Shown here piece by piece: positions 1,015 through 59,057 of a stretch of 64,000 nt of DNA (position 1 is its first letter; each line of letters starts with the position of its first letter). The notes beneath the pieces are model-generated. The model made no database searches. It was not told the origin of the DNA and was given only the letters and a program-made list of their open reading frames with translations. A program made the position numbers and the translations under genes. The stretch spans positions 1-64,000 of the forward strand of contig NZ_JRQN01000010.1 of the NCBI RefSeq assembly GCF_000785785.1, read 5' to 3'. Source of the DNA: Streptococcus uberis. Lineage in GTDB: Bacteria > Bacillota > Bacilli > Lactobacillales > Streptococcaceae.

Positions 1015-2057
1015 TAAATTTGTCCTTTCTTCATATTCCATTTAGCCCAACGTTTTAAGATTGGTGCTGGCGGTGTTACTTTCGGCGCACGCTCATCTAA
1101 CAACCATGTTGCTGCATAATGAGTATCAGAAACTTTAAACATTGGAGGTTCTTCTTCCAAGTCGATATCTAAAGCAAACTCATTACGAGCAGCAAAGGCA
1201 TCTCCTTTTGGGGGATTCAATAAATCTGGAGGTGTTCCTGGAATTGATTGAAGACTGCCTTCTTCTGTATCAGTTGTTGGCATAGAGTTCAAAAGACCCC
1301 AAGTGTAGGGATGTTGTGGATTGTAGAAGACTTCGTCTACTGTACCATATTCAACAATTTTACCAGCATACATAACTGCTACACGATCAGCCATTCCAGC
1401 CACAACGCCAAGGTCATGGGTGATAAAGATAATTGATGATGAAATTTGTGATTGCAAACCTTTCATCAATTTCAAAATTTGGTTTTGAATGGTAACATCA
1501 AGGGCAGTTGTTGGTTCGTCAGCAATCAAGATTTCTGGATTAGCTGCAAGTGCAATGGCAATTACAGCACGCTGACGCATACCACCTGACCATTGATGTG
1601 GATAATCATTGATATGCTCTTCAGCATTTGGAATACCAACTTGATTCATCAATTTTAAGGCGCGATCTAAAGCTTCATTTTTTGAAATTTTCTCGTGAAT
1701 TAAAATAGCTTCCGCAATCTGCATGCCAATCTTCATTGTTGGATCAAGACTGGTCATAGGATCTTGGAAAATCATGGCAATTTCTTTACCACGGACTTTA
1801 ACCCATTCATCTTCAGTCAGCTCAATTAATTTCTTCCCTTTGAAATCAATGTCCCCAGTGATACTAGCATTTTTAGCGTTCAGCCCCATCAAGGTACGGG
1901 TTGTAACTGATTTACCTGAACCAGATTCACCAACGATAGCAAGCGTTTCACCTTTATACAGGTCAAAATTGATATCACGGATTGCTTTGACATCTCCAGC
2001 ATATGTTTTAAAATCAACGCGGAGGTCTTTGACACTTAATACTTTTTCTTGAGTCAT
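1014..2057 (-). CDS. oppD: oligopeptide ABC transporter ATP-binding protein OppD
   Basis: Second ATPase of the peptide importer, 347 residues. Walker A GESGSGKS lies at 43-50, the signature is WSGGMRQRAVIAIAL and Walker B is ILIADEPTTALD. The C-terminal oligopeptide-transporter domain contains NPQHPYTWGLLNSMP. GGAGGG precedes the ATG. The stop codon overlaps the start of oppF, so the two ATPases are translationally coupled. The split into separate D and F subunits marks a peptide (Opp/Dpp) system; substrate specificity cannot be read from the ATPase. Confidence 0.92.
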   Translation of the reverse strand: MTQEKVLSVKDLRVDFKTYAGDVKAIRDINFDLYKGETLAIVGESGSGKSVTTRTLMGLNAKNASITGDIDFKGKKLIELTEDEWVKVRGKEIAMIFQDPMTSLDPTMKIGMQIAEAILIHEKISKNEALDRALKLMNQVGIPNAEEHINDYPHQWSGGMRQRAVIAIALAANPEILIADEPTTALDVTIQNQILKLMKGLQSQISSSIIFITHDLGVVAGMADRVAVMYAGKIVEYGTVDEVFYNPQHPYTWGLLNSMPTTDTEEGSLQSIPGTPPDLLNPPKGDAFAARNEFALDIDLEEEPPMFKVSDTHYAATWLLDERAPKVTPPAPILKRWAKWNMKKGQI

Positions 2058-2071
2058 ATTAATTTTCCCTC

Positions 2072-3103
2072 CTAGTCGTTACTTGATTTTGGATCAAATG
2101 CATCGCGCAAGCCATCACCCAAAAGAATGAAAGCAAGTGAGATGAGTACCAAGGCCATGGCAGGAAGCATTACTTGATAAGGGAAGTATTGCAAGTTTTC
2201 CTGAGCATCTGTGATCAATGATCCAAGAGAAGCTGTTGGTGGCTTAACACCAAGGTTAATTGCTGATAAAACTGATTCATACATGATCGCACTCGGAACA
2301 GTCATCATAATTTGAACGATGATGATCCCAGAAATGTTTGGTAAAACGTGTTTGAAGGCTATTTTGAAATTGCTTTCGCCAAGTGCACGAGAGGCAAGTA
2401 CGAAATCACGCTCACGGTATGAGAGAGTTAAGTTCCGAACCTGACGAGCCATCGAGGTCCAACCAACAATGGCGATTGAGAATATAATTGACAAAACACC
2501 ATTGCCAAGCAAAAGACCAAGCATGGTGACAATAACTAAGTTTGGAATAGAGGAAATAATCTCAATAATCCGTTGCATAACAGTATCGACTTTACCCCCT
2601 GTGAAACCAGAAATCAGACCATATGTCACACCAATAATTAAGTCAAACATGGTTGCAACAATCGCAATTAGTAATGAAATACGAATACCAACTGTAATCC
2701 GTTTACCAATACTACGTCCTAAATTATCAGTACCCAATAGGAATTTTTCCCCTTCTGGAACACCTTGGTCAGCATAGGCATCATTTGGTGATGTATTTCC
2801 TGCATAGGTGATACTACCATTCCAAAATGGTAAAGATGAACTCAGCTTTGGTGGCAAGTTACGATAGGTACTTACTTTTTTACTATCAAAACTATTGGCA
2901 TCATTTTTAGAAACAATAGCATTTGATCCTACTGCAAAAATCAACAAGGCAATAAGAAATCCCATTGCAACAACAGCCAATTTATTATGTTTTAATCTAC
3001 GCCAAGCATCTTCAAGGAAAGATAATGCTGGCTTTTCAATTTTTTCTTGCGTGTCAGAATTACCTGCCCCTACAAGAGTAAAAGTTTTCTTTTCTTCTAG
3101 CAT
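2072..3103 (-). CDS. oppC: oligopeptide ABC transporter permease OppC
   Basis: Membrane-spanning subunit, 343 residues. It has a cytoplasmic N-terminus, a first membrane segment at about residues 40-62, an extracellular loop of about 75 residues, and the usual cluster of helices with the EAA-type cytoplasmic loop (RQVRNLTLSYRERDFVLASRALG) that docks on the ATPases. FLLGTDNLGRS before the second helix is a typical OppC/DppC motif. It follows oppB by 9 bases. The family assignment is firm; the peptide preference is unknown. Confidence 0.9.
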   Translation of the reverse strand: MLEEKKTFTLVGAGNSDTQEKIEKPALSFLEDAWRRLKHNKLAVVAMGFLIALLIFAVGSNAIVSKNDANSFDSKKVSTYRNLPPKLSSSLPFWNGSITYAGNTSPNDAYADQGVPEGEKFLLGTDNLGRSIGKRITVGIRISLLIAIVATMFDLIIGVTYGLISGFTGGKVDTVMQRIIEIISSIPNLVIVTMLGLLLGNGVLSIIFSIAIVGWTSMARQVRNLTLSYRERDFVLASRALGESNFKIAFKHVLPNISGIIIVQIMMTVPSAIMYESVLSAINLGVKPPTASLGSLITDAQENLQYFPYQVMLPAMALVLISLAFILLGDGLRDAFDPKSSND

Positions 3104-3112
3104 CTTACTCTC

Positions 3113-4027
3113 CTATCCAAGACGCACACGTGGATCTGCAATACTAATAACAATATCAGTTAGCAAAATTGCGACCATTAGCATCACGGCGTATACAATT
3201 GTTGTTCCCATAATAACTGGGTAATCTTTCGTTGGAATTGATGAAACAAACTGCTGCCCAATTCCTGGAATGGAAAAGATCTGTTCAATCAAAGCTGACC
3301 CTGTCAAAATATTAGCAGCCATTGGGCCAACTAAAGTTAAGACTGGAATCATTGAATTCCGGTAAGCATGTTTATTCGTTACCTGACGCTTAGTTAATCC
3401 TTTTGCTCGGGCTAATTGGATATAATCCGAATTCAAAGTTTCAATCATTTCACTACGGAAGAAACGCGTAACCTGTGCAAATACAGGAATCGCTAAACCA
3501 AAGGTAGGTAAAATTGTTTGTGCAAATGTTCCCCAACCAGATAATGGTAGTAAACCCCATTTAAAACCAAAATAGTCTAATAACAAAAGGCCAATGATAA
3601 AAGCTGGTACTGAAATACCGAGCGTTGAAATGACACTTAAAAAGCCATCAATTTTGTTATTTTTATTACGAGCTGAGATAGCCCCTACTAGAAGCCCACC
3701 AGAGATACCAACTACCAATGCTTGAATTCCCAAATGAATAGAAACTCCCAAGCGTTGCATAATTAGTTTTGACACAGATTGATTAATAGACTGGTAACTT
3801 GTCCCAAAATCGCCATGTAAAATGTCAAACAAGTATTTGAAGTACTGTTGCCATAGTGGTTTATCTAGACCATATTGCTTATTCATCATAGCAATCATTT
3901 CTTCAGTTAATTTCGGAGAGTTGTAAGGTGTTCCTGGCATAACTTGCATCAGGAAAAAAGATAAGGTTACAACAACCCAAAGTGTAGCAATAAGGATGGC
4001 TACACGTTTTAATAAGTATTTAGTCAT
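3113..4027 (-). CDS. oppB: oligopeptide ABC transporter permease OppB
   Basis: Membrane subunit of 304 residues with an N-terminal helix (about 8-29), the OppB-type motif QYGLDKPLWQQYFKYL near 50-66, and the ATPase-docking loop RSEMIETLNSDYIQLARAKG. The length fits the compact DppB/OppB type, not the roughly 500-residue AmiC type also found in streptococci, so this is probably a second, Dpp-like importer. A hairpin separates it from oppA. Confidence 0.88.
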   Translation of the reverse strand: MTKYLLKRVAILIATLWVVVTLSFFLMQVMPGTPYNSPKLTEEMIAMMNKQYGLDKPLWQQYFKYLFDILHGDFGTSYQSINQSVSKLIMQRLGVSIHLGIQALVVGISGGLLVGAISARNKNNKIDGFLSVISTLGISVPAFIIGLLLLDYFGFKWGLLPLSGWGTFAQTILPTFGLAIPVFAQVTRFFRSEMIETLNSDYIQLARAKGLTKRQVTNKHAYRNSMIPVLTLVGPMAANILTGSALIEQIFSIPGIGQQFVSSIPTKDYPVIMGTTIVYAVMLMVAILLTDIVISIADPRVRLG

Positions 4028-4045
4028 ATTGTTCCTCTAACAAAA

Positions 4046-4075
4046 GCAAGAACTGGTCAAAAAACCAATTCTTGC
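4046..4075 (-). terminator. intercistronic hairpin between oppA and oppB
   Basis: Read on the minus strand, GCAAGAATTGGT and ACCAGTTCTTGC pair with one mismatch around a T-rich loop and are followed by TTTTG. It lies between the binding-protein gene and the permease genes. By analogy with other ABC operons it may partially terminate or stabilise the oppA message, giving excess binding protein. Confidence 0.5.
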
Positions 4076-4103
4076 AATATTACATTACTAGTGCTTCCTA
4101 GGC

Positions 4104-5763
4104 TTATTTTTTGTAAGCGTAAGTGAAGTCAACATTTAAACCTGTTGAATTACGGATTAATCCTTTAATACTTGGATTTTGTAGTCCTTCACCACTACGG
4201 AAGTAAATTGGGTTGTAGTTTGCAGCTTCATAAAGTGCTTTTTCACCCTCTTTATAATCTTTTGCCGCAGCATCTGTATCAAGAGCATCTGTAGTTAAAG
4301 CTTTTTCATAAGCTTTATCAAATGTTTCATTGGTGAATTTACCATAGTTATAGGCTGAACCTGATTTCATCAAAGCGTAGAATGTTGAACCTTCTGGATA
4401 ATCACCAACCCCAAAGTGAAAGGGCAACTTCAAAGTTTTGGTTCTTAGTGTCTTCTAGACGTTGTTTAAAAGTAACAAATTTTTCTTCAACAGTTAGACC
4501 TGGTAATGCTTTTTCCCAAGTTTCTTTGAGGTAGTCAACAGTTGCTTTTGCTACTGGACTATCTGCATCTGAAGTTACTGTTAATTTAACTTTATCTTTT
4601 CCGAGTTCTTTCAAACCTTCTTTAAAGAGTTCGCCAGCTTTCTTTTCATCATAAGTATAACCTGGAGCAACATATTTCGTTAAATCAGAACCATCTTTAA
4701 GTTTTGCAAGACCAGTTGGTACCAAAGCAGTGGCTGGTTTAGAACCAGTATCAACAGCTGCTGAAACAATACCTTTACGGTCAGTTGCTAAGTTAAGTGC
4801 TTGACGAATTTTAGTATTTGACAAAGCTTCTACAGATCCTGTTTGGTTGTAGTTAATGTAAGCTGTTGTTGCTTCTAAAACTGGTGTAACATCTTTGTTC
4901 TTTTTGTTAGCATTGTAAATTGCTGAAGTTCCTGAGATATTAGCATAGTCAAGTTTGCCTTGTTTGTACATTTGAACGGCTGTATCAGGTTTCTTAACTG
5001 TTTGAACATTTACAACACCATTTTTGACGTTTTTAGCATCCCAGTAATTTTTATTTTTTACAAGTTTGAATGTTCCACTTGTACCATTCCAATCTTTAAC
5101 TGTGTATGGTCCTGAATAAACTTGTTTTTCTGAAGATGTCCCATAATCTTTACCAGTTTTCGTCACAAAGTCTTCTTTTTGTGGCATGAAGTTAGCAAAT
5201 GAAAGGAGGCTCTTGAATTGCGGAGCTGGCTCTGTCAAAGTAAAGATAACTTTATTGCCTTCAGCTTTAACACCAAGAGAATTTAGATCTGTATTTTTAC
5301 CTGAATTGATTTCTTCAGCATTTTTCAAATGTGATTCAGTCGCAAGATAAGCGTACTCTGAAGCTGTCGCAGGATCAACCATACGTTTCCATGTATAAAC
5401 AAAATCTTTAGCAGTTAAGTCACTACCATCAGACCATTTTAAACCATCACGTAGAGTTGCTGTGTAAGTTAATCCGTCTTCAGAAACATCAACTTTTTTA
5501 GCTAAATCTGGTTGTAATTTACCTTTAGCATCAACACGAAGCAAGTTACTTCCTGAGTTACCAATAGCAAGTGCTGAATAGGTATCTGTATTTTTTGAAA
5601 TATCAAGTGTAATAATTTCAGTTGGTGTATACCAGTTAATTTCATTTTTATTGTCATTAGACGCAGTAGATTTATTACCACATGCCATTAAAACAGCAGC
5701 AGATGCTAACGTCAATGTTCCTAATCCAACACGTTTCCAATTAGTGCTTTTTGAATTTGTCAT
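4104..5763 (-). CDS. oppA: oligopeptide-binding lipoprotein OppA, frameshifted as sequenced
   Basis: Extracellular lipid-anchored peptide-binding subunit (SBP_bac_5 family). The N-terminus has a lysine/arginine-containing signal and lipobox LMAC with Cys at 28. The mature part has typical motifs such as DGLKWSDG and SGPYTVKDW. The reading frame breaks near 4415-4425: one frame stops after LSLWGW and the rest (DYPEGSTFYALMKSGSAYNYG onward) continues in another frame. Removing one T restores LSLWGGDYPEG. Joined length is about 550 residues, normal for DppA-like proteins. AGGAGG precedes the ATG. The single-base shift may be a sequencing error. Confidence 0.85.
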
Positions 5764-5811
5764 TTCAGTGACCTCCTAGTCAAGCATTTCTTAATAAGTT
5801 TAATACATTAA

Positions 5812-5820
5812 ATTATACCA
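5812..5820 (-). promoter_or_regulatory. promoter of the opp operon (extended -10)
   Basis: Minus-strand TGGTATAAT gives a consensus extended -10 element about 50 bases before the oppA start. The -35 region is only T-rich, as extended -10 promoters allow. Confidence 0.55.
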
Positions 5821-5970
5821 CAATTCAGAAAAAAAGAAACAAATTTATCTGAAAATTTGGATATTAAATTTTTATGTATATGTAGGTATAAAACAGCTTG
5901 AAAACGTGGGTTTTAGAGGTGTTTTGTTAATAAAAAACCATTTGTTTTGAATATTTTTATGAAACATTCA

Positions 5971-5999
5971 AAAAAACTGCACGAAAATATGCAGTTTTT
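5971..5999 (-). terminator. terminator after glnA
   Basis: AAAACTGCA and TGCAGTTTT pair around an 8-base loop, with a T run on the minus strand directly after the glnA stop. Confidence 0.75.
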
Positions 6000-6005
6000 C
6001 TAATT

Positions 6006-7352
6006 TTAGTAATTATGTATATAATTATCAATTTCCCATTGTGAAACAAATGTTGCATATGAAGCCCATTCAATGCGTTTTGCTTCTAAGAAGTTGGTAT
6101 AGATATGTTCACCTAAGGCATTTTTTACTACTTCGTCAGTTTGCAATGCTTTCAATGCATTGTGTAATGTTGATGGTAAATCTAAAATCCCTGCTGCTTC
6201 TCTTTCTTCAACAGTCATTGTATAAATGTTTGCTTCAACAGGAACTGGTGCATCAATTTTATTTTCAATACCATCAAGTCCAGCTTCAAGCAATACTGCT
6301 AAAGCAATATAAGGATTAGCGGTTGGATCTACAGAACGTAACTCTAAACGTGTACCTTGTCCACGAGATGCAGGAACGCGGATCAACGGCGAACGGTTAC
6401 GACCTGCCCAAGCAACATAAACTGGTGCTTCGTAGCCAGGAACTAATCGTTTATATGAATTGACTGTTGGGTTCATAATAGCAGTGTAATTATAAGCATG
6501 CTTCATTAGACCACCTAAGAAATAATAGGCATCTTGTGATAATTGCATCCCTCTGCTATCGTTTTCATCAAAGAAAGCATTATTACCATCTTTATCAAAC
6601 AATGACATATTACAATGCATACCAGATCCATTGATACCAAATTTAGGTTTAGCCATAAATGTTGCATATAAACCATCTTTGCGAGCAATTGTTTTAACAA
6701 CTAATTTGAAAATTTGGATATTATCACACGCTCTAAGAACATCATCATATTTAAAATCAATTTCATGTTGTCCCACAGCCACTTCATGGTGACTTGCTTC
6801 TACTTCAAAGCCCATTTTAGTCAATACATTAACAATTTCTCGTCTAGTATTATCAGCTAAATCAGTCGGAGCTAAGTCAAAGTAACCACCTTGGTCATTA
6901 ACCTCTAAAGTAGGATTACCATTTTGATCCATTTTAAAAAGGAAAAACTCTGGTTCCGGTCCTAAATTAAATGATTTATAACCAACCTTTTCCATATGTT
7001 TTAAAGCTCTTTTTAAATTACCACGAGGATCTCCAGCGAAAGGTTCTCCTTCTGCAGTATAAATGTCACAAATTAAGCCTGCAACTGCACCATTTTCATC
7101 TCCCCATGGGAAAACAATCCAAGTATCTAAATCTGGGTATAAATACATATCAGATTCATTAATACGCACAAATCCTTCAATTGATGAGCCATCAAACATT
7201 GCTTTATTTGATAAGACTTTATCTAATTGTTCATCTGTTGCTGGTATTTCCACATTTTTCATGATTCCCATGATGTCTGTGAACATCAAACGTAGGAAAG
7301 TTACATTTTTTTCTTTAACTTCGCGTCTAATGTCAGCTGCCGTGATTGCCAT
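6006..7352 (-). CDS. glnA: glutamine synthetase type I
   Basis: Makes glutamine from glutamate, ammonia and ATP in the cytoplasm. The 448 residues have the usual GlnA landmarks: [13 protein letters not shown] near 50-65, EPEFFLF (metal ligands), [12 protein letters not shown], and the NRSPLIRVP active-site segment. The length fits the short GSI-alpha form of Firmicutes, which is feedback-inhibited by glutamine and lacks the adenylylation control of long forms; in Bacillus the inhibited enzyme activates GlnR. It sits 36 bases downstream of glnR and shares its promoter. Confidence 0.96.
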
Positions 7353-7388
7353 AAAATAGGTCTCCTTATTTTCAAATCCGTTCGTAGG

Positions 7389-7760
7389 TTAAATACGAAA
7401 GTTTCCCAAATATTGCGAAGGTGTCGAAAAGCCACCTTGGTTTTGAAGTTCATCATGAAGGATACGACGAACATCAGCATCAGTTAATGTAGTTTGTTTT
7501 TTCTTCGATTTTTCTAAACGATTCGCATACTCTTTTTTGATTGCTGCTATATTTAAGCCATCATCTAAAAAATCTTTAATTTCCAGCAACCTATCCATAT
7601 CATTTAAAGAAAACATTCGACGATTACCATCCGTACGTTCCGGTTTAATCAAATCTTGATCTTCGTAGTAACGAATTTGTCTAGCAGATAAGTCGGTTAA
7701 CTTCATTACAGCACCAATCGAAAAAACAGCCATTGAACGTCTGAGCTCTTTCTCTTTCAT
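7389..7760 (-). CDS. glnR: MerR-family repressor of nitrogen metabolism GlnR
   Basis: A 123-residue regulator with an N-terminal MerR helix-turn-helix (IGAVMKLTDLSARQIRYYEDQDLI, about 15-38) and a C-terminal tail that in homologues contacts feedback-inhibited glutamine synthetase. GlnR represses glnRA, and elsewhere glutamine/glutamate transport genes, when glutamine is plentiful. A GlnR box and strong promoter lie immediately upstream, so it is expected to control itself. Confidence 0.94.
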   Translation of the reverse strand: MKEKELRRSMAVFSIGAVMKLTDLSARQIRYYEDQDLIKPERTDGNRRMFSLNDMDRLLEIKDFLDDGLNIAAIKKEYANRLEKSKKKQTTLTDADVRRILHDELQNQGGFSTPSQYLGNFRI

Positions 7761-7782
7761 GAAAAACTCCTTTCACCAGTCT

Positions 7783-7811
7783 ATTATATGCCCAATACAA
7801 AAAGATGTCAA
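7783..7811 (-). promoter_or_regulatory. glnRA promoter
   Basis: On the minus strand TTGACA (7806-7811) and TATAAT (7783-7788) are separated by exactly 17 bases, a full sigma-A consensus promoter 22 bases before glnR. Confidence 0.85.
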
Positions 7812-7818
7812 CAATCAA

Positions 7819-7835
7819 TGTCAGGAAACCTAACA
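7819..7835 (-). promoter_or_regulatory. GlnR operator
   Basis: Minus-strand TGTTA-N7-TGACA matches the known GlnR/TnrA consensus TGTNAN7TNACA at every defined position. It lies directly upstream of the -35 of glnRA, the usual place for GlnR autoregulation. Confidence 0.85.
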
Positions 7836-50050: not shown

Positions 50051-50794
50051 CTAATTGTCAAGTTCCAACTGATCTGCTTTAATTTGTTCTAATACTTGAC
50101 TAATAATCTGTGTCTGACCTAACATCTTGACACGAGCCATCGAGGTCTTCGTATCAAAGACTGCTAATTTTTGGTCAAAACTAATTGATACATCAAAACT
50201 TCCTCTGGTGTCGGATTCCAAGAATTTTCTAAGATGCCACATTCATTAGCACGTTCCCACAAATTTTGATCAATAAAATAAGGATTATCCAAATTAGCTG
50301 GTACAGGAATATCATTTGCTATAGCGAACTGAATTTCTTCCTCACGAGACCATTTCCATTCTCTGACTAATGCAATCACTTTTAATTGAGGATCTAATGC
50401 TGCAATAGCCACGTCAAAACGGACTTGGTCGTTACCTTTACCTGTACAACCATGTACAATAGAAGAAGCACCCATCTAGTGAGCAAGCTCAACAAGTTTT
50501 TTTAGAGATAAGAGGGCGACTAAGTGCTGAAACTAAAGGATACTTTTGTTCATAAAATGCATGAGCCTGTAAAGCAGGTAGAACAAAGTTTTCTGCAAAT
50601 TCACCCTTCACATCAAGAACATGTGCCTCAACTGCATCTATTTTCAAAGCCTTGTCATGGATAAATGGAAGATCTTTTCCTTCTCCGACATCCATACAGA
50701 CAGCAATAACATCATAAGTTTCTTTTAACCAAGCGATAGCAACAGAAGTATCCAAACCTCCAGAATAAGCTAAAATTTATTTTTCCTTTGACAT
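50051..50794 (-). pseudogene. argG-argH deletion remnant
   Basis: Pieces of argininosuccinate synthase (ArgG) and lyase (ArgH). The ATG at 50794 reads MSKEK then a stop; the same frame continues [17 protein letters not shown] to SRPLISKK, the ArgG N-terminus. A frameshift leads to [14 protein letters not shown] ... GILENSW, then near 50190 the text jumps to [21 protein letters not shown], the ArgH N-terminus, and ends after about 45 more residues. The C-terminal half of argG and most of argH are gone. It cannot make either enzyme. Confidence 0.85.
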
Positions 50795-50983: not shown

Positions 50984-51190
50984 CAAAAAAACTCGGATGG
51001 GAGTCCGAGTTCTTTACTGATGTAAAAATCAGTCAATATGTTATCCAAACAAAGACAACTGAATTGATCATTAGTAATAAAAGAGTCATATCAAAAATAT
51101 TATTTATTTATGGAGAGAGAGAGAAAAAACAATATTTTGATTGAATTGGGGATTAACTCTTAAAAACTAGTGATTTAAGTCTTTATTTAT
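50984..51190 (-). ncRNA. fasX: FasX regulatory RNA
   Basis: Downstream of fasA and reading the same way. TATAAT at 51197-51202 predicts a start near 51190; AACTCGGA/TCCGAGTT with a following T run (50984-51011) ends it. The predicted length, about 207 bases, agrees with FasX of S. pyogenes (about 205), as does its position between fasA and rnpA. In S. pyogenes FasX pairs with mRNAs for streptokinase and pilus or adhesin genes. No protein is supported here. Confidence 0.8.
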
Positions 51191-51196
51191 ATACTT

Positions 51197-51263
51197 ATTA
51201 TAGCGATAATATCTTGATTGGTACGTTTTTTTCCTGAAATGTTTATTTTTCATCCTAAAATGT
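51197..51263 (-). promoter_or_regulatory. fasX promoter with LytTR-type direct-repeat operator
   Basis: TATAAT lies at 51197-51202 with a poor -35. Upstream, ACATTTTAGG (51254-51263) and ACATTTCAGG (51233-51242) form a direct repeat with 21-bp period, the two-turn spacing used by LytTR regulators such as ComE and AgrA. FasA, a LytTR protein encoded next door, is the obvious ligand. Confidence 0.7.
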
Positions 51264-51278
51264 TAATTATTTAACGAT

Positions 51279-52011
51279 TTAGTGCAATTCTTGCCATTTT
51301 TCGATTAAACTTTTCATTTTGAGACGTGAAACCATACAATCATCTCCATTATCAAAATAAACCAATTGATTAAACTTGTCAATCCGAACAACATTTTTAA
51401 GATTAATTAAGTAAGAACGATGACAGAGGAATAATTCTGGAGCTACTTCTTGAATTTCAGAAAGTTTCCCATAAAACTCTAAGCGCTCGGTTTGTGTCCA
51501 CAAACAAACTTTATGAGGTGTTGTTGAGGTTGCAAAATAAAGGATATCTTTAAAGGGCATTTTTAGTTTGAGGTGTCTCAAAAATAAATAAATCTTCAGG
51601 TTCATTTTTTGACATCATTTCATTGGTATAAAAAATACATTCTTCAATCTGTTCTTTAAACTGCTCAGTATCAACAGATTTATCAATAAAATCTAAAGCA
51701 GATACTTTATACTTATACGAAATCGGAGCAAACTCTGAATGAGTTGTTACAAAAACAATAACTGCATTAGGATCTTTTTGACGAATCTCTGTCGCCAGTT
51801 CTAAACCTTTACGTGATTCGCCTTGAATTTCAATATCAAGAAAGAAAAGTTGATGATCTCCCTTTTCTCGGATAGCCTCGTATAACTTTCTAGGATTAGA
51901 AAAAACTTCCATAAATTTACAATTTATTTTATTTTCATCAAGAATGCTTTCAATTACAGATTCTATTCGAGTTTGCTGAATAAAATCATCTTCTAATATA
52001 AAAATGTTCAT
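51279..52011 (-). CDS. fasA: response regulator FasA (LytTR), frameshifted as sequenced
   Basis: A receiver domain (about 1-125: FILEDD, phospho-Asp in FFLDIEIQG) and a C-terminal LytTR DNA-binding domain (KDILYFATS, LFLCHRSYLINLKNV). The frame breaks near 51555-51560 in a run of five A: one frame ends PQTKNAL, and removing one A continues PQTKMPFKDILYF. Joined length is about 243 residues, normal for FasA/AgrA-type regulators. It starts one base after the preceding kinase gene. It should activate fasX through the repeat upstream of that gene. Confidence 0.85.
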
Positions 52012-52012
52012 T

Positions 52013-53325
52013 CTAGGGTCTCATTTCTAGGATTTGTCGTAAGCGATAATGATTGCTTCGGGTTGAAAAAGTTGCTGAGGGGTAATCATTTAATACAGAC
52101 AGGAAACGAGAGATACTTTTTTGATAGGATTCCACGTTAGTCACTGCATCACTGCTATTATATAGTTTGGTCATGTCCACTTTTTTATTCTTAGTAGCGT
52201 TTTCGATAATTAAAAACTGCTGCCCATCATCTTCAAAAAAGACAATTGAAATGAATGGCTTTATACTTCCTCTTGCTGTATCAATAGCATTATCTAATAA
52301 AATGGAAATTAATACAACTAAATCTAATAGTTTTACATGATAATGGTTAACTTTATCTGGAATTTCCAGGTAAACATCAATTCCTTGATGCTGCGCTTCA
52401 TAAATTTTTGTATTTAATAAACTCCGAACGACGCTATCTTCAATATTTTCTAAATCACCATAGCCAGTCGTTCTATCTAAAAATTGCAAAGCCGATTGTT
52501 GAACAACGGTATGATAAACTTGCTCAATATCTGTCCTACTTCCTTTATCTATACTATCTTTCAAACTAATCAAGATGTTTTCTGAGTCGTGTTTAAGCGT
52601 TCGAATATCTTGATAAAGACTCTCGATATAATTATTATAATTCTCAAGGTTATCAATGCGTTCTTGTTGGGCAAGCTTAAGTCTGTGGTGTAACTGCTGT
52701 TTAGCGAAACGATCTAACTGCATAATAAACCAAATGAGTACTGAAATATAAACCAAGGTGATATGAGTCCGGTAGGTTTGAAAAAAGTCAGGAAAAAGAC
52801 CAAGCTCTTTAGCAATAAATTTAACCAGAATTAAATAAGACAACATGGTAATATTCATCCCTAATACAAAATAGGAAAACCGCTCATTATTAATGTATCT
52901 GATGAGACTAATATCTAAATTAAAGAGGTAGGAAAATAAACCATAAACTGGTAAAATAACCGCGTAAACCATCACTTTTAGCCAAATATGATTATTAATA
53001 TCAGTTAGTGTTAGTAAAAAAAGTGGTGGCATGACACAAAGTGCCAACAATTTGTAAATAACCTCACATAATATGATGCAAATAAGCCATAAAACATATG
53101 ATGAGACCATTTCTTATCTCTCCTACTACTGTAAGAAAGACCAATAAAAAACAGCTGATTAAATAAAATACTATTTTCAAAAATGACATTTAACCCTAAA
53201 AACAATAGGTAGGTCAAACTTAATTCCCACCAAGGTTTTCTAATCCCAGAGGACCTACTAAAGAAATACCAAATATTAAAAAACAACAAACTATACAAAA
53301 TCAGCGTAGGAAATAGTGATGACAA
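52013..53325 (-). CDS. fasC: fas-locus AgrC-type sensor, acceptor-type kinase, frameshifted as sequenced
   Basis: About 437 residues when joined. N-terminal helices (to about 200) come first, then a coiled coil and IRTLKHDSENILISL, with phospho-acceptor His near 246. The N-box SILLDNAIDTA is present, but the glycine-rich ATP-lid (GxGxGL) is absent; instead LYNSSDAVTNVESYQ is found. The frame breaks near 53097-53101, where adding one A to AAGAAATGG restores KKMVSSYVLW. TTG start immediately after the stop of the preceding gene. It probably needs a partner for ATP-dependent phosphorylation. Confidence 0.75.
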
Positions 53326-54672
53326 TTAAACTTCTCCCCCTTCAGGTATCGTTAAAACATGACTAAATTGATAGTCAGCACTTTTTGTAGCTAGCGTAAC
53401 TAGTGGGTACTTTTTAAGTATGTTTTCAACACTGACTAAACCGATCCCACGCCCAGTACCTTTAGTGGAATAACCATCTTCAAAGATAGCCGAAATATCA
53501 ACCTGCTTTTCAAGCGTACTATTTTCAATAACAAAGTATTGCTTGTTTGACATCGTAAAGTAGGCAACAGCTATTTGTCTTTCTTTTGACAATTGCGCTG
53601 CTTCTATAGCATTATCAAAAAAGATTGAAATCAATAAGAGAAAATCAAGTTCCGGTATATTCGATTGATAGATATTATCTGGAACTTCCAAGGCGACACC
53701 TAGACCCTTTTGTTCAGCTTCAATTATTTTAGCAGAGAGTAAACTCTTTACAGAGGAAATAGAAACAGTCCCTAATTTAGCGATGTTATAATGCTTTTGG
53801 TCCCAATACTGATTGGCCTTGTCAACAATTTGATAATAGACTAATCTAACATGATCTAAGTCATCTTTTTCAATGGCTTGCCCCAATTTATCAAGACGTT
53901 TCAAATAGCTTACTTGGAACTCTTTACCATCTTTATATAAGCATTCTAAATGATGCCCATAGGATTCCAGATTTTGAATATACTCATCTTGTTCTTTTTT
54001 CAGATCTTCTTCCATATAGGCTTTTGATTTATGATTAAAATAAGATAATAAATAAAGAAACAATAAGGTAAAACTAAAAAAAAGAATTTTATAAGAAACT
54101 TCAACCTTCATCGGGTGCTTGTAATAGATAAATGGATCTACAAAACCTAAAACCAGAAAAATATCAACATAATAGGCCAACATAAAAATGATGAAGATAC
54201 TATAGAAGTTCTTTGCACGATCAGTCTTATCCATTTTAAAAATATGCTTATAATCATGTCCAACAAAATAGTCAACAAGCATAATCATCGGAAAAACTAA
54301 TAAATACACTATCAAGTTAACAAATGAATATCCAACGTTAATTTCATTTGTTAAGAAGATATATGGTAAAACAACTGTAATGAGAAAGCGGGAAAATAAA
54401 TCAACAAAAACACTTGGGAAAAAAGCAATGAATAACGATTGAAGGCTAAAGATTTTTCGTTTTTCTAACTTTAGTAACACTAAAAATAAAATAGGATCAA
54501 TTAATAACGGTGATAAAGCGGGAATTTGATTGATCAAAATAGCAAAAGACATTAAGAGTAAAAGCTTCCAGAAAGGGAACTTAATATCTGATAAAAATGA
54601 AAAAATATAAAATTCTGTTGAATAATAAACAATGATTGATAATATCAAACAGATTAAATGTAGTAATGGCAC
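53326..54672 (-). CDS. fasB: fas-locus AgrC-type sensor, ATPase-intact but histidine-less
   Basis: 448 residues. About seven helices (1-215), a coiled linker, then a HATPase domain with intact N-box SIFFDNAIEAA and lid STKGTGRGIGLVSVENIL. At the phosphorylation position the sequence is EFQVSYLKRL: Val254 stands where AgrC/ComD-type kinases have His. It may act as phosphate donor to the histidine-bearing product of the next gene. GTG start with AAAGGAG upstream. Confidence 0.75.
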   Translation of the reverse strand: MPLLHLICLILSIIVYYSTEFYIFSFLSDIKFPFWKLLLLMSFAILINQIPALSPLLIDPILFLVLLKLEKRKIFSLQSLFIAFFPSVFVDLFSRFLITVVLPYIFLTNEINVGYSFVNLIVYLLVFPMIMLVDYFVGHDYKHIFKMDKTDRAKNFYSIFIIFMLAYYVDIFLVLGFVDPFIYYKHPMKVEVSYKILFFSFTLLFLYLLSYFNHKSKAYMEEDLKKEQDEYIQNLESYGHHLECLYKDGKEFQVSYLKRLDKLGQAIEKDDLDHVRLVYYQIVDKANQYWDQKHYNIAKLGTVSISSVKSLLSAKIIEAEQKGLGVALEVPDNIYQSNIPELDFLLLISIFFDNAIEAAQLSKERQIAVAYFTMSNKQYFVIENSTLEKQVDISAIFEDGYSTKGTGRGIGLVSVENILKKYPLVTLATKSADYQFSHVLTIPEGGEV

Positions 54673-54756
54673 TAAATTCTCCTTTCTAGATTATCTATTT
54701 TATCACAATTCAATGGTGTTTGAAAAACACTCAATGGACAAACTAGTGTACAATAC

Positions 54757-54791
54757 AAAACTGCAGCCAATCTTTTTTAATAACTGCAGTT
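54757..54791 (-). terminator. weak terminator between the two fas kinase pairs
   Basis: AACTGCAG and CTGCAGTT pair around a 17-base loop, followed by TT on the minus strand. It separates the upstream kinase pair from fasB-fasC-fasA. Confidence 0.5.
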
Positions 54792-54823
54792 AATAATATG
54801 ACTTAATTCGTTTTAAGTTAACC

Positions 54824-56146
54824 TTATTTCAGGGTTGCTATTAATTCTTGGGTAAATTGATGATTCTTACTTTTTGTTGATAACTCAATCGACGAATATT
54901 GGTCAAGGATTTTCTTTACATTAGACAAGCCTAACCCTCTATTTCTACCTTTGGTCGAGAAGCCTTCTTTAAACACATTACTAATAGCGACTTGATTTTC
55001 CTTACTTGAATTTCGCACAATTAAATAGAGCTTCTCATCGTTATAGAAGAGGACTAAATCAATCGTTTTTTCTGCAGAGTCACAGGCGGCCTCAATTGCA
55101 TTATCAACAAAAACAGAGAGAATGACAATAAAATCAATAATATTCATTGGGATCTTATCAATTTGGTCTGGAATTTCAACGTTTGACGTCAATCCTAATT
55201 CATTGGCTTTAAATAATTTCGCAGCCAAAAGACTCTTTATCGTTGCAATTTTAATATTTACTAAACGATCAAGAGCATAGCGTTCCGATTGTTTTGGCTG
55301 TTTATTATTAATGAAAAGTGTTTGATAATCGTTCTTTAATTGTTCAATATCTTCTGAAGCAATACTCGGACCCATCTTCTCCAAAGACTCTCTGGTTTCT
55401 ACTTTAAACCGTCGAATTTCTTCATATAAAGAATTGACATACTGATTATAATTATTGAGATTAGTTAAATGATTTTGACGTTCTTCATAGATTTTATCGT
55501 CAACAAAACGTCTTGAATACTTAATAATTTGATGTAAACTCCACAGAAAAATCAAAATATAGCCTGCAATCATTAAATAACGAATCCTCGCTACCAAAGG
55601 GGCTATACTGGGGATATGATATTGTAAGAAAATAGTGAGTGATACAGCTACATAAAAGATAATCATCCCAATATTAAAAACTCGTAAATCATTTCGAGTT
55701 GTCGGTTGATTAGCTTGTTTTACCGCAATATAATCAATTTGCAAGAGGAAATGAACTAGGCGAGAAAAGGGGTAAACCAAGAGGTATGACAGTACAATAA
55801 AATAAGGATTATTGCTAGTTATAGCCGTTGAAGCATGAAAAATTGTTGGTATCGCAACATATCCCATAAACCGTGAAATTAACCTAACAATAGTAATTGC
55901 ATAAAAGGTGTAAAGAATATGTTGGGCTCTACTATAGGATTTATTAGTTAAATAAGAAAAAAGAAGTAAAAAAATTGGGTCAGACATGACATAAATACCA
56001 TCTAAGATGTATGTCCCAATCACTGCACTAACAAAATAGAGAAGGATGTAGGATGCTTTTAACTGACACTTGGTCAATTTATAATAGATTAATAAATAGG
56101 TTGCGTATATGACACAATACATTACAATTGTTGTACTTATAGACAA
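54824..56146 (-). CDS. additional AgrC-type sensor, ATPase-intact but histidine-less
   Basis: 440 residues. About six to seven helices (1-210) precede the linker. The region equal to the phosphorylation site reads IRRFKVETRESLEKM, with Val249 in place of His. The HATPase domain is intact: SVFVDNAIEAA and STKGRNRGLGLSNVKKIL. It pairs with the following histidine-bearing gene (19 bases away). TTG start preceded by GAGG. Not part of the two-kinase S. pyogenes fas locus as known to me. Confidence 0.75.
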   Translation of the reverse strand: MSISTTIVMYCVIYATYLLIYYKLTKCQLKASYILLYFVSAVIGTYILDGIYVMSDPIFLLLFSYLTNKSYSRAQHILYTFYAITIVRLISRFMGYVAIPTIFHASTAITSNNPYFIVLSYLLVYPFSRLVHFLLQIDYIAVKQANQPTTRNDLRVFNIGMIIFYVAVSLTIFLQYHIPSIAPLVARIRYLMIAGYILIFLWSLHQIIKYSRRFVDDKIYEERQNHLTNLNNYNQYVNSLYEEIRRFKVETRESLEKMGPSIASEDIEQLKNDYQTLFINNKQPKQSERYALDRLVNIKIATIKSLLAAKLFKANELGLTSNVEIPDQIDKIPMNIIDFIVILSVFVDNAIEAACDSAEKTIDLVLFYNDEKLYLIVRNSSKENQVAISNVFKEGFSTKGRNRGLGLSNVKKILDQYSSIELSTKSKNHQFTQELIATLK

Positions 56147-56165
56147 TTGTCTTACCTCGATTCTT

Positions 56166-57476
56166 CTAAGGGGATCTGATAATGACGACTTCTTGAATAA
56201 ACACAGATCCTTCAGCTCTCACATCGTAACTAAAATTGGGGTATTTTTCCACTAGATTAATAAATGTTCTGTGTGCTTTCTCAATCTCTGTTAAGATATA
56301 TTTTCGTTCTTTTGTTTTCAACTTTTCAGCATTTGTTAATACCTTTAACGACACCCAGTTGGGCTTTGACATATCATAGTAAATGTCAATAAAACCATTT
56401 GAAAGATCTTTAGCCATCAAAATAGCTAAATCACCAATTGCTGAAATAATGACAATGTCATCTTTATCTTCTAAAATACGATTCGCCATGTTCCCTTTAA
56501 CTTCAATCACAGGCACTGTACCATTTTGACGAGCCTCATAAATTTTCAATGCTAGGAGGATTTTCATGTCAAAATTATCAATTTTATCTAATTGATCTAG
56601 TCTCAAAAGCGCCTCATAGTCAACTAAATCATCCATTTTCCCCACTATTTGATGATAAACAGGTTTAATAACAGAAAAATCACCACTCTCAATAGCACCT
56701 GATAAACTAATCAAAATATTGTCATAATCATGTCTAAAGGACCTAATATTTTGATAGAGCGTTTCTAAGTATTGGTTGTATTGTTCTAAAAGTTGAATGT
56801 GCTTTTCTTCCTCAAGTTGAATAAGTGTTTTAGTATTTTTTTGAAAATAATGATTTAAAAAAGATAACAGGCAAACAAAGATCATGAAGAAAATCAGAAC
56901 CACTGATTTTTTATAGTCATTCATAGAAGCATCAATTAAAAGAGCAGAGTAGGATAGCGTATAATAGAGGAAAAAAATCAATTCAATCCCTACAATAAAG
57001 CGATTGAAAAGTCTTGTATCAAACCGTAAAAAGATAAAACTATCAATAGAAAAGATTCTAGCCAGATATCTCATTATCGGCACTACTGCTAAATAACTCA
57101 CTATAATGTAGTTATAGTTCTGTTGCACATGACCTACTGAACTATTTACAACGAAAGGAATAATGAAGTATAAACTGATTTTTGCAAATAAATCTGTGAC
57201 CACAACAGGAAACTGTGAAAAGAAAATATGTTGGATAATGTTATCTTTAGGATACTTTATATAATGATAAACAAACATCATTAAGGGCTCTACAAGCAAA
57301 TAATAACTGCCAATAAATCCTATTATAGTCATTTCAAACAAGACAAAAAGACTAATTTGCCCCCATGGAATCTTTCGATTTTTCCGATCTACTGAATACT
57401 CCATGTCAAAAAAGACAAACCATGCCACGCCAAATCTGACAACAAAAACTAATATTAATGATAATGAATTTGGCAT
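56166..57476 (-). CDS. additional AgrC-type sensor, histidine present but ATPase degenerate
   Basis: 436 residues. Helices to about 205, a coiled coil, then IRSFRHDYDNILISL with an ideal phospho-acceptor His249. The ATPase part has SAIGDLAILMAKD where the N-box should be (no Asn) and no glycine-rich lid. It is therefore an acceptor-type partner, mirror image of the next gene. First gene of the kinase cluster; AAGGGA precedes the ATG. Confidence 0.75.
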   Translation of the reverse strand: MPNSLSLILVFVVRFGVAWFVFFDMEYSVDRKNRKIPWGQISLFVLFEMTIIGFIGSYYLLVEPLMMFVYHYIKYPKDNIIQHIFFSQFPVVVTDLFAKISLYFIIPFVVNSSVGHVQQNYNYIIVSYLAVVPIMRYLARIFSIDSFIFLRFDTRLFNRFIVGIELIFFLYYTLSYSALLIDASMNDYKKSVVLIFFMIFVCLLSFLNHYFQKNTKTLIQLEEEKHIQLLEQYNQYLETLYQNIRSFRHDYDNILISLSGAIESGDFSVIKPVYHQIVGKMDDLVDYEALLRLDQLDKIDNFDMKILLALKIYEARQNGTVPVIEVKGNMANRILEDKDDIVIISAIGDLAILMAKDLSNGFIDIYYDMSKPNWVSLKVLTNAEKLKTKERKYILTEIEKAHRTFINLVEKYPNFSYDVRAEGSVFIQEVVIIRSP

Positions 57477-57612: not shown

Positions 57613-59057
57613 TTAGAGCATTTTGTCAATATGTTCGATTGATTTATCACGCCCCAAAAGATAGATTGTGTTTGGTAATTCTGGCCCATGCATTTCACCA
57701 GAAACGGCAATCCGAATCGGCATGAAGAGATTTTTCCCTTTAATGCCTGTTTCTTTTTGGACAGCTTTGATTTGTGGGAAAATGTTTTCTGGTTGAAACT
57801 CTTCATCTGTCATCGCTGCTAATTTTTCTTTAAACGCTTTTAAGACAGTTGGTACTGTTTCGCCAGCCATGACTTCTTGTTCTGCTTCAGTCAACTCTGG
57901 AAAATCAGCAAAGAATAAGTCAGTCAAAGGCACAATTTCGTCCGCAGATTTTAATTGTGGCTGATACAATTCAACTAATTTTTCTGCTTTTTCGTTTAAT
58001 CGCCCTGCTTCTTCCAAGAAAGGTTTGCAGAGAGCAAAAACAGTTTGGAAATCTGAATGTTTGAGGTACTCATTGCTCATCCAATCCATTTTCTTCTGAT
58101 CGAAGGCAGCAGGAGACTTACTAAGACGATTTTCATCAAATAGATCAATTAATTCTTGGCGACTGAAGATTTCATCTTCACCACCAGGATTCCAGCCCAG
58201 CAAAGCTATGAAGTTGAAAACTGATTCTGGAAGGTAACCTTTTTTGCGATAGTCTTCAATAAATTGAAGTGTGTTAGTATCACGTTTAGACAGTTTTTTC
58301 CCTGTTTCAGAATTGATGATCAGAGTCATATGACCAAATTCTGGCGCGTCCCATCCCAGTGCTTCATAAATCATCAATTGTTTTGGTGTGTTTGCGATAT
58401 GATCATCCCCTCGGATGACATGTGAAATCTGCATATCATGATCATCAACAACTACCGCGAAGTTATATGTTGGGTAGCCATCTTTTTTCTGAATAACCCA
58501 ATCGCCACCAATATTGCCACCTTCAAAGCTAATCTCACCTTTAACCATATCAGTCCATTGGTAGATACCAGACTCATTAACAGAAAGACGCACTGTTGGA
58601 ATAATACCCGCAGCTTCTCGTTCTGCAATGTAAGCAGCTTTTTCATCAGCTGACATACCAATAAATTCATTGATATAACGAGGTGTTTCGCCGGCTGCTT
58701 CTTGACGTTCACGTTCAATTGCTAATTCTTCTTCCGTGACATAGGATTTGTAGGCCTTACCTTCAGCTAATAATTGATCAATGTATTTTTGATAAAGTTC
58801 TAGACGTTCAGATTGACGGTAATTTTCATGAGTTTCTGGACTTTCATCCCAATCCATTCCTAACCATTTTAAGTTCTCAAGTTGAGAACGTTCACCGTCT
58901 TCAACGTGACGTTTACGGTCAGTATCTTCAATACGGATGATAAAGTCTCCACCATGATGGCGAGCATAGAGGTAGTTAAATAGGGCTGTACGGGCATTCC
59001 CGATATGTAGAAGCCTGTTGGACTTGGTGCATAACGCACACGAATTGGTTTAGACAT
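57613..59057 (-). CDS. gltX: glutamyl-tRNA synthetase, frameshifted as sequenced
   Basis: Charges tRNA-Glu (and in Gram-positives tRNA-Gln before amidation). The start [15 protein letters not shown] is normal, then the frame breaks near 59005-59015; adding one base restores the [15 protein letters not shown] segment with the HIGH-like motif, and the rest is intact (KLSKRDTN is the KMSKS-like motif). Joined length is about 481 residues, as expected. The enzyme is essential, so the one-base loss is probably a sequencing error. Confidence 0.93.

Follow-up and report, generated by a model that had tools for sequence, protein, structure and literature searches.

How can a locus full of sensor genes signal when none of its sensors is a complete kinase? 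The question is raised by a stretch of 64,000 nucleotides from Streptococcus uberis (contig NZ_JRQN01000010.1 of assembly GCF_000785785.1; hereafter the window), in which four AgrC-like sensor genes lie in a row at positions 52013-57476. An earlier note, made from the letters alone, had given the four sensors in the order and at the positions that we find, and had proposed that they form two obligate heteromers feeding a single response regulator, FasA. We conclude that the window probably carries an expanded Fas system in which two split sensor kinases act on one FasA. In each pair, a subunit with an intact kinase (CA) domain and no acceptor histidine ("CA-only": FasB or, in the upstream pair, w2) would bind ATP and phosphorylate in trans the DHp histidine of a partner that has the histidine and lacks the ATP lid ("H-only": FasC or w1); this partner would hand the phosphate to FasA, and FasA would switch on the small RNA FasX. 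The working unit would be the pair and not the single protein, and pairs would therefore be inherited and multiplied together.

The first line of evidence is the residues of the four proteins. Of the outer two, w1 keeps the acceptor histidine in RHDYDN, has leucine instead of asparagine in its N-box (DLAIL) and lacks the lid, while FasC keeps the histidine in KHDSEN and the N-box asparagine (DNAID), again without a lid. The inner two, w2 and FasB, have valine at the acceptor column (FKVETRE and FQVSYLK, respectively), an intact DNAIEAA, and a lid with GLGL and GIGL, all as the earlier note had it. Identical residue states are found in 7 w1, 7 w2, 11 FasB and 12 FasC proteins of at least 250 aa (the window included): all 11 FasB proteins combine an intact N-box and lid with loss of the acceptor histidine, and every classified w1 copy retains this histidine, the aspartate next to it and the asparagine at +4. 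In profile alignments with the solved structure 6e52 of AgrC, a complete kinase that carries both histidine and lid, the CA-only profile has a histidine-less stretch under AgrC FRHDY and retains the lid, and the H-only profile retains HDY and ends before the lid; a divergent lid in the outer two was looked for and not seen. Judged by motif, acceptor histidine and kinase domain thus appear to sit on different proteins. PF14501 (GHKL) exceeds its gathering score of 22 in three of the four sensors (53.0, 58.7 and 32.5 bits), and a Pfam scan of w1 finds no GHKL domain at E <= 1; in a predicted model, the remnant C-terminal domain of w1 has a fold like that of the ATPase domain of AgrC (4bxi; VIA Z 18.4, root-mean-square deviation 2.7, 142 residues). 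For w1 and w2, structures predicted from 7 and 12 sequences (mean pLDDT, a model confidence score, 73.7 and 78.1) match AgrC structures best.

For FasB and FasC, this division of labor has been studied in group A Streptococcus, where the fas locus comprises fasB, fasC, fasA and fasX (Baral et al. 2025, PMC12675982, here and below in its available sections). A two-hybrid signal was obtained for FasB-FasC and for neither FasB-FasB nor FasC-FasC; FasC H246 and FasA D60 are required, the FasC kinase domain is dispensable, C-terminally truncated FasB is inactive, and FasB H241A still complements. The authors proposed FasC to be a pseudokinase, suggested a phosphatase function for FasB, left phosphorylation of FasB H284 open, and described reports of two sensor kinases working as a heterodimer as rare. 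The mechanism, a heterodimer model, is thus already published for group A Streptococcus, and not, in those sections, for the organism studied here (PMC12675982). We took genome G043 as the reference for the published numbering, as the lengths and histidine positions of its FasB and FasC are those published: FasC H246 falls at the acceptor column, the same column as the histidine of KHDSEN in the window, and FasB has Ser254 there. Our locus shares with FasBCAX of group A Streptococcus the order fasB-fasC-fasA-fasX, the acceptor histidine on FasC and the intact kinase domain on FasB, and differs in the second H-only/CA-only pair, which lies upstream here only (PMC12675982). The FasB/FasC pair is therefore known, and the extra upstream pair, multiplied in some streptococci, is the addition of the present analysis.

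The genus as a whole was surveyed by going down the genus list in steps of four (37 genomes, of which 31 gave 68 matches), from which 65 proteins of at least 250 aa, belonging to 30 genomes, were classified. Complete kinases made up 48 of 49 lone proteins, all except a shortened one from G057, versus 0 of 16 tandem ones (Fisher's exact p 2.6e-14, relatedness ignored); the latter were 5 H-only, 5 CA-only and 6 others, neither complete nor a clean half. The whole set, biased because many extra loci were fetched for being tandem, holds 154 proteins (9 fragments below 250 aa having been dropped before classification), namely 72 complete, 35 CA-only, 34 H-only and 13 other. Its 50 adjacent couples divide into 31 H-only/CA-only, 6 CA/CA, 2 complete/complete, 1 CA-only/complete and 10 that include an "other", with no H-only/H-only couple among them. 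The five lone half-kinases are shortened (G057, G082), stand beside broken partners (G124, G148) or lie near a contig end (G019:C21).

Extra pairs recur in other streptococci. FasA-like receivers of at least 71% identity occur in 9 of 147 genomes of the genus, accompanied by four sensors in three (this genome, G077 and G070), by two in five (G090, G017, G043, G050, G032) and by a broken fasB in one (G124). FasC alignment added a list of nine named loci; the two lists overlap, S. phocae and S. ictaluri being counted in both. There are two sensors each in S. phocae, S. halichoeri, S. castoreus and S. pseudoporcinus, four in S. didelphis, six genes in S. penaeicida (the upstream ones mostly broken), a more distantly related pair in S. 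hyovaginalis, and eight half-kinases in S. bovimastitidis, where three extra pairs and fasB/fasC, in the order H, CA, H, CA, H, CA, CA, H, precede one fasA and FasX. One, two or four half-kinase pairs thus stand before a single fasA, and the duplication of the pairing suggested for the window is seen in related loci as multiplication pair by pair. The order within pairs is H-CA upstream and CA-H in fasB/fasC. FasX reaches its gathering score in 7 of 12 loci, the others being L154, L155, L072, L076 and L151. Among titles and abstract openings of the open-access literature matches listed, none described a fas locus with more than two sensors, and relative to these matches the multi-pair loci and the genus-wide half-kinase group are new.

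Several loci depart from this pattern. In S. ictaluri (L091) and G124 (L067) fasB, and in S. penaeicida (L154) the upstream half-kinases, are split into several open frames, by decay or draft errors. Four tandem sensors followed by a FasA-like gene are present in L072 (G113, 1105-6749) and L073 (G082, 1209-6881): one CA-only, one H-only that stops at 296 aa, short of a kinase domain, and two without clean histidine or kinase motifs. L077 (G122, 3696-7829) is an unsplit tandem array of three adjoining complete HK10 kinases. In L075 (G068:C1, 1630-11065) and L074 (G019:C20, 922-4385), the neighbours of the CA-only sensors are a complete kinase and a FasA-like regulator, which may mark a stage at which one partner only has lost a function; that the CA-only/complete couple of G019:C20 is a half-way stage, with the histidine lost first, is a guess.

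The history of the half-kinases was followed in two quick trees, both with long-branch warnings. One, from membrane part plus DHp, had 85 rows, i.e., 67 of 69 half-kinases (G057 and G082:846115 being left out) and 18 of 72 complete proteins; the other, from the membrane part alone, had 84 rows, 17 of them complete (without G065:C9), as did the topology test. The half-kinases, together with the two complete proteins of G019:C20 and G068:C1, cluster as one group, separate from the remaining complete kinases sampled, with support of 100 with DHp and 99 on the membrane part alone. A single CA-only clade appears with DHp (SH-aLRT 97), while the membrane part alone needs 6 state changes and does not reject such a clade (p-AU 0.273). 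The tree with DHp supports a single origin of the CA-only state; the membrane part alone speaks neither for nor against it.

Whether partners keep to their own pair is a separate matter. The earlier claim that both pairs feed the single fasA is in keeping with the one match that the FasA receiver finds in this genome at E <= 1e-15. The w2 protein finds four at E <= 0.001, which are these four sensors. That the upstream pair has the same chemistry as FasB/FasC and delivers phosphate to FasA is what we infer from the shared locus and the single receiver match. Partner distances correlate over 29 pairs (r 0.949, 0 of 5000 permutations as high), within fasB/fasC (r 0.922, 0 of 5000) and within upstream pairs (r 0.759, 4 of 5000). 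Spacing within pairs is -16 to +19 bases, with 76 to 164 bases between w2 and fasB (five loci measured). The correlated distances within upstream pairs, and genes that are tight within pairs and more widely spaced between them, would both speak, indirectly, against mixed pairing, in which either CA-only protein serves either H-only protein and up to four receptor types add or combine their signals on FasA. As all halves share one ancestry and one locus, and sequence by itself forbids no cross-pairing, we regard mixed pairing as rather unlikely; our degrees of belief in it and in the expanded Fas system are not mutually exclusive.

Conservation bears on the second alternative, namely that the upstream pair is a regulatory antagonist that binds FasB, FasC or FasA and lowers activity. 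In w1 the DHp domain is conserved at 42% and the CA domain at 21%, in w2 at 35% and 52%, respectively; at the level of sequence, each protein of the upstream pairs is thus conserving the half it would need. Kinase-like antagonists such as RetS exist (PMC12675982), and w1 has indeed lost most conservation of its kinase domain. A pure antagonist would nevertheless have no use for the N-box and lid kept in w2 or for the histidine, aspartate and Asn+4 kept in w1, and we consider this explanation improbable. Between the window and G077, w1 (49% identity) and w2 (46%) have diverged more than FasB (79%) and FasC (67% and 74% for its two pieces), with FasA at 92-95%; faster divergence of the upstream pair would fit changing ligands. 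Asparagine at +4 from the histidine is universal among the H-only proteins (34 of 34), frequent among complete ones (52 of 72) and scarce among CA-only ones (4 of 35). An asparagine four residues after the histidine is the counterpart of the phosphatase residue of other kinases, and by this analogy the FasA phosphatase function is probably located on the H-only subunits FasC and w1, as opposed to FasB, for which it was proposed in PMC12675982.

A third possibility, that FasB and w2 autophosphorylate on a displaced histidine with the H-only proteins as accessories, draws on the question left open for FasB H284 (PMC12675982), on a histidine 40 residues beyond the acceptor column in 11 of 11 FasB orthologues, and on one at -13/-14 in 20 of 35 CA-only proteins. 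H284 is histidine in only 3 of 11 FasB proteins (H241 in 9 of 11) and is therefore an unlikely phosphate acceptor. The -13/-14 histidine is no CA-only substitute either, since complete (33 of 72) and H-only (10 of 34) proteins have it too. Window w2 has no histidine from 22 residues before to 22 after the column, and no displaced histidine is common to all 35 CA-only proteins, a class defined by having none at the acceptor column itself (0 of 35 by construction). Together with the requirement for FasC H246 and the complementation by FasB H241A in group A Streptococcus (PMC12675982), this makes the displaced acceptor very improbable.

The quality of the draft needs separate comment (96 contigs, 95.0% complete, 3.8% contaminated). 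The earlier note had given the fasC protein as the single stretch 52013-53325, but neither fasC nor fasA is one open frame: fasC is in pieces 53011-53325 and 52013-53110, and fasA in pieces 51550-52011 and 51279-51605. FasC, FasA and ArgG of G077, when searched against the window, are each split over two frames, while fasB, w1 and w2 are uninterrupted. The argG gene (50051-50755) spans two frames or more, and the first part of gltX (58857-59057) is apparently out of frame with the remainder; GltX of G077, the nearest relative, aligns only from residue 16. As gltX is essential and argG is broken as well, sequencing error is a likelier cause of the breaks in fasC and fasA than decay. That the half-kinases are themselves artefacts of a poor draft, as the broken fasC, fasA and argG might suggest, can practically be dismissed, as the lost residues lie within open frames and recur in other assemblies, including the single-contig genomes G077 and G070.

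Several observations nevertheless weigh against the expanded Fas system as we describe it. Frame breaks interrupt two of its genes, fasC and fasA, in this draft, and the 16 tandem kinases of the systematic sample come from four genomes only (G017, G077, G097, G113). H-only/CA-only pairs in G097 (L079), G035 (L080) and G072 (L152) have no FasA-like gene within ~4.5 kb. Three of the 35 CA-only proteins (G149:76906, G019:C30:1503, G147:324896) have a histidine at +1 to +4 and may carry a shifted acceptor. The correlation of partner distances also tracks species history. The CA domain of FasC is conserved at 56% (8 proteins, without the broken copy of the window, whose C-terminal piece is included in the Mantel tests of distance), like that of FasB (57%), despite being lidless and dispensable in group A Streptococcus; since it is conserved like FasB's, it is not simply dead and may keep a regulatory or FasA-binding role. 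Finally, the proposal of obligate heteromers agrees with experiment for FasB/FasC of group A Streptococcus (PMC12675982), and support for the upstream pair is comparative.

On the minus strand, the order of transcription is w1, w2, fasB, fasC, fasA and FasX RNA, with gltX upstream and argG downstream (Table 1). The order fasB-fasC-fasA with FasX downstream is that of a Fas locus; the published Fas locus has exactly two sensor genes and the window has four, hence the name expanded Fas locus. The pattern for the candidate FasA site was derived from this same site, so that the chance estimate is no test of it; for group A Streptococcus, a ComE-like site ahead of the fasX promoter has been reported (PMC12675982). 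Across the region, matches resembling promoters or terminators are not commoner than in shuffles. In agreement with the earlier note, no candidate pheromone gene was recognised among open reading frames of at least 50 aa around the locus or short minus-strand frames in three gaps; small genes elsewhere were not searched.

Table 1. Features of the expanded Fas locus, in window coordinates
Feature	Position	Strand	Description
w1	56166-57476	-	Upstream H-only sensor, made up of a membrane part, a DHp that bears the acceptor histidine and a remnant kinase domain
w1 acceptor His codon	56730-56732	-	Within RHDYDN
w2	54824-56146	-	Upstream CA-only sensor
w2 acceptor-column Val codon	55400-55402	-	
Gap w2-fasB	54673-54823		Between pairs, 151 bases; within-pair gaps 19 and 0 bases
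fasB	53326-54672	-	FasB orthologue, CA-only
FasB acceptor-column Val codon	53911-53913	-	
fasC	52013-53325	-	FasC orthologue, H-only
FasC acceptor His codon	52589-52591	-	Within KHDSEN
fasA	51279-52011	-	Response regulator, receiver and LytTR domains
Candidate FasA site	51233-51263	-	Upstream of fasX; 10-base direct repeat, 21-base period
FasX	50987-51190	-	Small RNA; Rfam RF02384, 142.7 bits (gathering score 100)

Among known systems, the window sensors share fold, membrane sensor layout and motifs with staphylococcal AgrC (HK10), whose subunits act in trans within dimers; AgrC is a complete kinase. The window sensors score 48.4 to 124.6 bits, far below the cut-off of 500 of the AgrC equivalog NF046015. 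In CheA3 and CheA4 of Rhodobacter sphaeroides, the acceptor histidine and the ATP-binding part of the kinase are likewise divided between two proteins that do not autophosphorylate singly, but these chemotaxis kinases are without whole domains, while the window sensors keep the full AgrC-like layout including membrane parts (PMC3591291, available sections). Hik36 and Hik43 of Synechocystis are one kinase split over two proteins with one regulator, Rre6; they differ in being CheA-type with genes far apart, and multiplied pairs were not seen in the available sections of PMC7656254. GacS and RetS of Pseudomonas aeruginosa form a heterodimer of two sensor kinases, but both also homodimerise and RetS inhibits GacS (PMC12675982), whereas here activity would need both halves.

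As a tentative generalisation, about which we are somewhat more doubtful than confident, a clade of obligate half-kinase receptor pairs in streptococci would multiply whole pairs, with one FasA-type regulator integrating one, two or four split receptors, and mixing of H and CA subunits could add combinatorial or AND-type sensing. The comparison of H284, a poorly conserved residue, addresses a point left open in 2025 (PMC12675982). This naturally occurring series of pairs, whose halves have visibly lost different functions, makes trans-phosphorylation, partner choice and the seat of the phosphatase directly testable, and suggests that FasB/FasC of group A Streptococcus stand at the lower end of a family in which one regulator can receive input from several receptors.

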